A stretch of 64,000 nt of DNA, taken from Dehalococcoidia bacterium. GTDB taxonomy: Bacteria; Chloroflexota; Dehalococcoidia; Lucifugimonadales; HRBIN23. The DNA lies in assembly GCA_025060295.1 (NCBI GenBank), contig JANXCH010000002.1, forward strand, positions 62,001 through 126,000, written 5' to 3'. The position numbers and the translations under genes were made by a program. The notes beneath the pieces are model-generated. The model saw only the letters and a program-made list of their open reading frames with translations. It searched no databases and was not told the DNA's origin. The stretch's first letter is position 1, and every line of letters starts with the position of its first letter. Shown here in pieces: positions 27,449 through 30,938 of this stretch.

Positions 27449-27541
27449 TGGCGGAGGGAACGGGATTCGAACCCGTGAGGGGCCTTTTGGGCCCCCAAGC
27501 GCTTAGCAGGCGCCCGCACTAGACCACTATGCGATCCCTCC
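27449..27541 (-). tRNA. tRNA-Ser (GCT)
   Basis: 93 nt on the minus strand with an encoded CCA. The 7-bp acceptor is GGAGGGA/TCCCTCC, the anticodon loop CTGCTAA gives anticodon GCT, a long variable arm (GGGGGCCCAAAAGGCCCC) marks a class II tRNA, and GTTCGAATC is the T-loop. It reads AGC and AGU. Confidence 0.95.
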
Positions 27542-27550
27542 GCTACAGCC

Positions 27551-27579
27551 AGGATAGCAAGGGCCAGGCCCCCTGGCAA
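27551..27579 (-). promoter_or_regulatory. Promoter of tRNA-Ser (and probably miaB-nadABC)
   Basis: Minus strand: TTGCCA (27574-27579), 17-nt spacer, TATCCT (27551-27556), 10 nt before the tRNA 5' end. It uses the same hexamers and spacing as the E1 beta promoter. Confidence 0.75.
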
Positions 27580-27836: not shown

Positions 27837-27865
27837 TTGACAAGGGGGCGGGAGGGTGTTATTCT
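27837..27865 (+). promoter_or_regulatory. Promoter of the free-standing ncRNA candidate
   Basis: Perfect TTGACA (27837-27842), exactly 17 nt, TATTCT (27860-27865). There is no ribosome site or plausible coding frame behind it. The start of transcription would be near 27872. The stretch 27580-27836 between this and the tRNA-Ser promoter holds nothing I can identify. Confidence 0.75.
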
Positions 27866-27871
27866 ACACTC

Positions 27872-28123
27872 GGCGTCACGGGATGGCTGGGGGTGGAGCG
27901 CGCCGCGGCGGGCCATCTGCCGAGGGGGCTTCCCCAGGAGGGCATCCCGTGAGGCCACCGGGGGATACGGCCCTCAGGTCTCGCACAGGAGGCCCGGGCC
28001 CGTCGGCCTGGGGTGCGGGGGAAGCGCCGAGACGCCGACAGGGGCGGAGCGCGGGGACACGCACGGCGGACCTTGGGGCACGGTCTCCCTCCCTGCGGGG
28101 TGGGATGCCCCGCAGGTCTTTTT
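27872..28123 (+). ncRNA. Structured non-coding RNA candidate, about 250 nt, family unknown
   Basis: The stretch between a consensus promoter and a perfect intrinsic terminator folds by eye into a chain of domains. A: ACGGGATG (27878-27885) with CATCCCGT (27943-27950), inside it CTGGGG/CCCCAG. B: GAGG/CCTC (27951-27954, 27972-27975) plus CC/GG. C: GTCTC/GAGAC (27978-27982, 28029-28033) enclosing GCAC/GTGC and AGGCC/GGCCT. D: CGCCG/CGGCG (28033-28037, 28064-28068). E: GACC/GGTC (28069-28072, 28082-28085). Then the terminator. No conserved core of RNase P RNA, tmRNA or SRP RNA is visible; 6S RNA would form one long rod, which this does not. Confidence 0.65.
28092..28123 (+). terminator. Intrinsic terminator of the ncRNA candidate
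   Basis: Perfect 9-bp stem CCTGCGGGG (28092-28100) / CCCCGCAGG (28108-28116), 7-nt loop, then TCTTTTT. It ends 22 nt before the convergent NUDIX gene stop. Confidence 0.85.
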
Positions 28124-28144: not shown

Positions 28145-28654
28145 CTACCCTTGCCAACCCCTACCTGTGTGCCGCGCCCAGTCCTGCACCACCCGCTCGT
28201 CCCGGGGGAAGGCCAGCATCGGCAAAGCGTAGGGCGGGAAGAATCCCAGCGCTTCCACCTCGGGGCCGGGGGACAGGCTCCCCCGCACCACGCGGGCCAA
28301 GTACACGGCCAGCACGACGGGGTTGCCCTCCTCCGAGTAGAGCCCCAACAGAGGGCCCACCTCAATCTCCAGGCCGGTCTCCTCCCGCACCTCGCGGCGG
28401 GCCGCCTCCTCCACCCGCTCCCCTCGGTCTACATACCCGCCGGGCAAAGCCCACAGCCCCGCCCCTGGCTCCGTCTTCCTGCGGACGAACAGCAACGCCC
28501 CGTCGCACTCGACCAGGGCCACCGCCACCAGTTTGGGGTCTTGCCAGCAGACGACCCCACAGGCGGAGCAAACCATGCGCTCCCGCCCATCCACGACCTT
28601 TCCCCGCAGGGGGGCTCCACACTGCTGGCAGTAGACAGGCGGTGGGGGTGTCAT
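28145..28654 (-). CDS. NUDIX hydrolase with N-terminal zinc ribbon
   Basis: 169 aa. A zinc ribbon (CQQCG at residue 9 and CSACG near 29) precedes a NUDIX domain with a canonical box [12 protein letters not shown], then [16 protein letters not shown] enzymes hydrolyse nucleoside diphosphates linked to another group; the zinc ribbon is as in NudC-like NADH/NAD-cap hydrolases, but the NudC SQPWPFPxS motif is missing, so the substrate is open. Confidence 0.9.
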
Positions 28655-28661
28655 ATCGCCC

Positions 28662-29417
28662 CTACTCCTCGTCTTCCTCCTCTTCTTCCTCGGAGCGGGC
28701 GGCGGTGGGCACAGTTACCTGGGGGAGGAGCGGATGGGGGCGGTCCTTGGACGGACGGCGATGGGCAAGGCTCTGCAGGCGCTGGCGCAAATCCTGGAGG
28801 GCCGCCGGCTTCATCTGAGCGCACGAGACCACCACCCCGCTGATGCCTATATCCCGCAACGTCTCCAGTTCCCATGCCGAAGGGGGATGCTCTACCGGCA
28901 CTAGCACCGGGCGCGGGATTTTCCCCCGCCACACGGCCAACTCCACCGCTGTTGCCAGGGAAAGGGGGGGCTTCACCGGCTCCGCCAGGATCACCCCATC
29001 CACAGGGAGGGGTTCCAAAGCGTTGGCCACCTCCTCGGGCACATCCTTTGGAAGGTGCACCACCCGTCCCAGGTCCTCGTGGTTCAAGGCCTCCAGGGGG
29101 GCACCCATGTCCACCACCAGGAAATCGGCGCCGTGCTGCAGGGCCTTCTCGGCCAGGGAGGCAGACCACGGCACAACCTCTACCCCCCAAGGGATACCCT
29201 GCGTCGCCTCCGCAAGGGCCTCTAACCCTTGCGGTGTCGGGGAGGGGAACAGGAAGGCATCGGGGTGTACGGCTCGAGCAGCGGACATGTCTTCGGGGTG
29301 GGACGCCGCAAGGATCAACAGGATGGGGGGAATCCGCTCCTCACGGCGAGTGGCAAACCCCAGCGGAGCGGGGGTGCCCTTGCTTGCCTGCTCTATCTTC
29401 TGAAACAGTTTGCTCAT
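28662..29417 (-). CDS. Hypothetical protein, 251 aa, with acidic C-terminal tail
   Basis: It starts [14 protein letters not shown] and contains alternating beta and alpha segments ([52 protein letters not shown]), like a TIM-barrel or flavodoxin-type fold. The last 14 residues are nearly all Glu and Asp. There is no signal peptide. I cannot name a family. It is 7 nt upstream of the NUDIX gene on the same strand, so the two are co-transcribed. Confidence 0.75.
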
Positions 29418-30909: not shown

Positions 30910-30938
30910 TTGACAGGCGTCCCTCGCCCTCCTAGTGT
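30910..30938 (+). promoter_or_regulatory. Promoter of tRNA-Gly
   Basis: TTGACA (30910-30915), 17-nt spacer, TAGTGT (30933-30938), 14 nt before the tRNA. Confidence 0.6.

Follow-up and report, generated by a model that had tools for sequence, protein, structure and literature searches.

Positions 27837-28123 on the plus strand of the window (the whole 64-kb stretch of DNA analysed here) almost certainly hold a real, conserved gene for a structured RNA, as judged by sequence comparison. The gene would stand alone and specify an RNA of ~250 nt, with a strong extended -10 promoter and an intrinsic terminator of its own. The two structural domains of this RNA (a rod at the 5' end, then a three-way junction) appear to have been retained in three genomes, all of one Chloroflexota family, despite drift in most of the sequence. 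The locus combines the features of a free-standing structured small RNA, namely a promoter and a terminator that belong to it, absence of coding signal and a structure conserved in relatives. The initial annotation had placed a free-standing structured non-coding RNA outside the known families here, and this claim holds, given the null result with Rfam and the conservation in two relatives.

A predicted stand-alone transcription unit

The initial annotation had read a TTGACA-17-TATTCT promoter and a terminator at the two ends of the locus, and promoter and terminator scans recovered both (Table 1). When up to two mismatches were allowed, the pattern TTGACA-N14-TGN-TAnnnT occurred at 8 sites in the window, and the promoter described here is the only one with zero mismatches. 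Two promoter-like sites with this extended -10 layout, each with one mismatch, lie just 5' of tRNA-Ser (27551-27579, minus strand) and tRNA-Gly (30910-30938, plus strand); on account of these, the promoter of the present RNA resembles those of stable RNA genes. Homologs of the RNA were found in bacterium HR23 and in Chloroflexi NC_groundwater_1435, where the corresponding promoters read TTGACA-17-TACGGT and TTGACA-18-TATATT, respectively, both with the TG. A perfect TTGACA, an extended -10 element and a terminator are present in all three genomes, and the terminator hairpin of HR23 is nearly identical in sequence to the window copy.

Table 1. Features of the RNA locus and its immediate neighbours (window positions)
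Feature	Positions	Strand	Description and basis
tRNA-Ser(GCT)	27449-27541	-	upstream gene
Promoter, sigma-70-type, predicted	27837-27865	+	TTGACA-17-TATTCT with extended -10 (TG, one base, TATTCT); promoter scan, kept in both homologs
-35 element	27837-27842	+	TTGACA, followed by 17-nt spacer
-10 element	27860-27865	+	TATTCT, with TG one base 5' of it
5' rod, long imperfect hairpin	27872-27956	+	folding, mean pair probability 0.96-1.00; equivalent rod in HR23 and NC_groundwater_1435
Rod basal stem	27872-27888 with 27940-27956	+	
Rod upper stem	27891-27911 with 27917-27935	+	
Rod apical loop	27912-27916	+	GCCAU; GCCAG in HR23, GCCA in NC_groundwater_1435; folding
P1, 5' strand	27960-27984	+	long-range stem closing the three-way-junction domain; folding, alignment
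P2 hairpin	27993-28012	+	CCCGGGCC-CGUC-GGCCUGGG; loop CGAC in both homologs; folding, alignment
P3 stem-loop	28013-28064	+	base GUGC/GCAC invariant in 3 genomes; arm length variable
P1, 3' strand	28066-28089	+	includes conserved GCGGAC; pairs with 27960-27984
Intrinsic terminator	28092-28123	+	GC hairpin then TCTTTTT; terminator scan, fold
Terminator hairpin	28092-28116	+	CCTGCGGGG-TGGGATG-CCCCGCAGG; TCTTTTT runs on to 28123
NUDIX1	28145-28654	-	PF00293, Zn-ribbon type; convergent with the RNA

Several long open frames traverse the region because its DNA is 76% GC. When it was compared with HR23 in six frames, the longer matches, of ~35-53% identity, were scattered over all frames and favoured none; the adjoining NUDIX gene, used as a control, reached 82.5% in its true frame. 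Insertions and deletions between the window species and HR23 repeatedly disrupt every frame, and a Pfam search of the long frames gave no match. These results bear out the earlier statement that ~250 nt here lack coding potential.

The position assigned to the RNA, between tRNA-Ser and a convergent NUDIX gene, was likewise correct. The window and HR23 have a downstream set in common that consists of NUDIX1, a protein of 247-251 aa, tRNA-Thr, NUDIX2 and an alpha/beta hydrolase. The window copy of the second of these (28662-29417, minus strand) is 251 aa long, carries an acidic tail (EEEEEEDEE) at its C-terminus and is conserved in HR23; it gave no match in a Pfam search. In NC_groundwater_1435, the RNA lies between a RidA-like gene and a gene resembling NUDIX2, the latter directly downstream and co-oriented with the RNA. 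Since no neighbour gene is common to the three loci in the same orientation, the genomic context yields no function.

Two domains conserved in three genomes

The initial annotation had divided the RNA into five stem-loop domains. Folding instead gives a rod at the 5' end, then a three-way-junction domain in which a long-range stem (P1) encloses the P2 and P3 hairpins, and last the terminator; this plan is shared by all three RNAs when each is folded separately. The rod begins at the predicted transcription start and is placed in the same way in HR23 and NC_groundwater_1435; it was compared among the three RNAs by shape and loop only. In NC_groundwater_1435 the rod (GUCCCGAGU...ACUCGGGAC, L033 1376-1492) is followed by UUUUUU and, on this sequence, may double as a premature terminator within the RNA, a feature that neither the window nor HR23 has.

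The window RNA folds more stably than its shuffles (z of -3.3 in a first comparison); in a second, against 150 dinucleotide shuffles, the scores were -4.2 for the window, -3.6 for HR23 and -4.3 for NC_groundwater_1435. For comparison, 26 other stretches of the window averaged a z of -0.06, and none fell below -2.25. The minus strand of the locus folds less strongly against its shuffles (z -2.5) and lacks the T-run of a terminator.

The initial annotation had also proposed an alignment of relatives and a covariation test of the stems as a check, and had named lack of conservation as grounds for rejection. Instead, two further genomes keep the promoter, the fold and the terminator, with compensatory changes. 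In the three-sequence alignment (A5), 98% of the cells pair, falling to 33-52% once the partners are slid. Five pairs are changed on both sides and the covariation score was reached by 4 of 500 shuffles, a test of little power with three sequences and an alignment that was fitted to the structure. The three independent minimum-energy folds have only 15 pairs of the 3' domain in common, column by column, and in two of these both partners have changed.

Distribution and relation to known RNA families

Homologs were found in exactly two other genomes, that of bacterium HR23 (same genus) and that of Chloroflexi NC_groundwater_1435 (same family, another genus). The HR23 copy was the single clear match of a DNA search of 59 relatives (E 1.1e-14); it is syntenic, with the same convergent NUDIX gene, and its 3' domain is 72% identical to that of the window. 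The NC_groundwater_1435 copy is divergent and was recovered at 36 bits with a two-sequence covariance model (R1) that represents the 3' domain of the window and HR23 RNAs. A three-sequence model that includes it (R2) returned only the three known members across the whole order (250 genomes). A laxer covariance search of the 39 nearest genomes added only weak matches, of which those inspected look like chance, and covariance searches of a class sample (393 genomes) and a phylum sample (400 genomes) produced no further member beyond weak matches that were chance-like where inspected. A pattern scan of 84,980 species gave 54 matches, with the RNA itself only on the HR23 and NC_groundwater_1435 contigs; three viral pattern matches had no support from the covariance model, and a search of phages and plasmids gave no match. 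The RNA appears to be restricted to one family, or else to have diverged past detection outside it.

The weak covariance matches outside the family (L036-L045, L100-L104 and L110, all ≤28 bits) were judged to be chance after inspection of a part of them. Most of those inspected fall within long open frames; in the alignment of L036 many pairs are broken, L100 is repeat-rich sequence beside a tRNA, and L104 (G016 C1, around 107090) is a CRISPR array. The repeats of this array are near GGTTTATCCCCGCGCGTGCGGGGGAACC, and one spacer, ACGGAACCTTGGGGCACGACCCCCAGGACCACC, which occurs twice consecutively, has 13 bases in common with a P1 strand of the RNA (ACCTTGGGGCACG), probably by chance. Two matches of the DNA search, L005 and L006, proved to be protein-coding.

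At gathering thresholds, Rfam detected only tRNAs in the window, and a scan of the locus and both homologs down to E=10 gave nothing credible. The claim that the RNA belongs to no known family therefore survived the proposed Rfam check, in which the 6S model (RF00013) was included. The RNA had also been distinguished from RNase P RNA, tmRNA and SRP RNA, and indeed the source genome carries its copies of these elsewhere (C1:164138, C2:152770 and C23:112246, respectively). Among described RNAs, Chloroflexi-1 (RF01698), a structured candidate for which Weinberg et al. (2010, PMC2864571) list Chloroflexus aggregans only, is similar in its narrow range inside Chloroflexota, but it gave no match in the whole-library Rfam scan and comes from another organism group within the phylum. 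In its sigma-70 promoter, intrinsic terminator, intergenic position and lack of an open reading frame, the present RNA is like the orphan trans-encoded small RNAs of bacteria; compared with typical Hfq-type small RNAs, it is larger and more highly structured.

Possible modes of action

It is extremely improbable that the locus holds no gene and that a promoter, a GC-rich fold and a terminator merely coincide. Strong folding is expected of any GC-rich sequence, but all three elements have been kept, with compensatory changes, across the three genomes, one of which has them at a different chromosomal position. An orphaned or cis-acting riboswitch-like leader linked to the NUDIX gene would explain why the RNA of NC_groundwater_1435 lies directly 5' of a same-strand NUDIX gene, and why the window and HR23 each have a NUDIX gene of that type ~1.4 kb from the RNA. 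However, a constant position 5' of a same-strand gene, as expected of a riboswitch or leader, is seen only in NC_groundwater_1435; the window and HR23 have NUDIX genes that point towards the RNA, the terminator ends the RNA in all three genomes, and no Rfam riboswitch matched the locus or either homolog. Because the orientation towards NUDIX differs and every one of the three RNAs has its terminator, a leader role is not conserved, and we consider this reading quite improbable. The absence of a same-strand downstream gene in two of the three genomes suggests that the RNA would act in trans, not as a leader.

One conceivable trans-acting role is that of a 6S RNA substitute with a different structure, which would bind RNA polymerase. 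The present RNA is free-standing, of comparable size and provided with an extended rod-like helix, its strong promoter is compatible with such a role, and no recognisable 6S RNA is present in its class: the Rfam 6S model gave no match in the source genome and 12 relatives (0 of 13), and detected 6S RNA in 34 of the 151 Chloroflexota genomes sampled, outside the source class among the matches listed. The literature was also searched for 6S RNA in Dehalococcoides and for HRbin23, with no result. On the other hand, the ends of 6S RNA pair in a closing stem around a large central bubble, with one terminal hairpin, whereas here the 5' and 3' ends are unpaired, there is no such bubble, the rod is self-closed with a separate three-way junction added in a two-domain plan, and RF00013 does not match. 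A replacement for 6S RNA would also be expected class-wide, yet among the 250 genomes of the order this RNA occurs in only 3. Lacking the 6S shape and being far rarer than a replacement should be, it is very improbable in this role, and it is about as improbable, if not slightly more so, that its rod and three-way junction represent an independently evolved RNA polymerase regulator that replaced 6S RNA in a Chloroflexota lineage devoid of a recognisable one. A possible, if doubtful, alternative is a regulatory small RNA that pairs with target mRNAs without Hfq through its loops and junction segments, the structured parts serving for stability. A free-standing gene with its own promoter and intrinsic terminator is the usual layout of trans-encoded small RNAs, the constant loop sequences are short, and pairing that needs no chaperone is compatible with missing Hfq; but with its long GC-rich stems the RNA has little single-stranded sequence to offer, and Hfq, which an Hfq-dependent small RNA would need, was found in none of 13 genomes, the source genome included, while control genomes were positive.

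The RNA would rather be a protein-binding scaffold or decoy, a step that is less certain than its action in trans. Its recognition points would be the apical loops GCCA (rod) and CGAC/CGUC (P2), together with the P2/P3 junction. Binding of a protein is favoured over Hfq-type base pairing since structure is kept over sequence, the loops are constant and all 13 genomes lack a detectable Hfq. Taken as a whole, the sequence-based proposal of a conserved, structured, trans-acting small RNA that works by protein binding seems to us evenly poised between right and wrong.

The RNA probably represents an undescribed, lineage-restricted structured family, and the three-sequence alignment can serve as its seed. 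Judged from sequence, it adds genuinely, though modestly, to the known orphan structured RNAs of bacteria. Its host, a hot-spring-type bacterium, belongs to a Chloroflexota lineage that yielded neither Hfq nor 6S RNA and for which our literature searches gave no work on RNA. If its protein partner were RNA polymerase, the ribosome or a dedicated chaperone, the RNA would become important.
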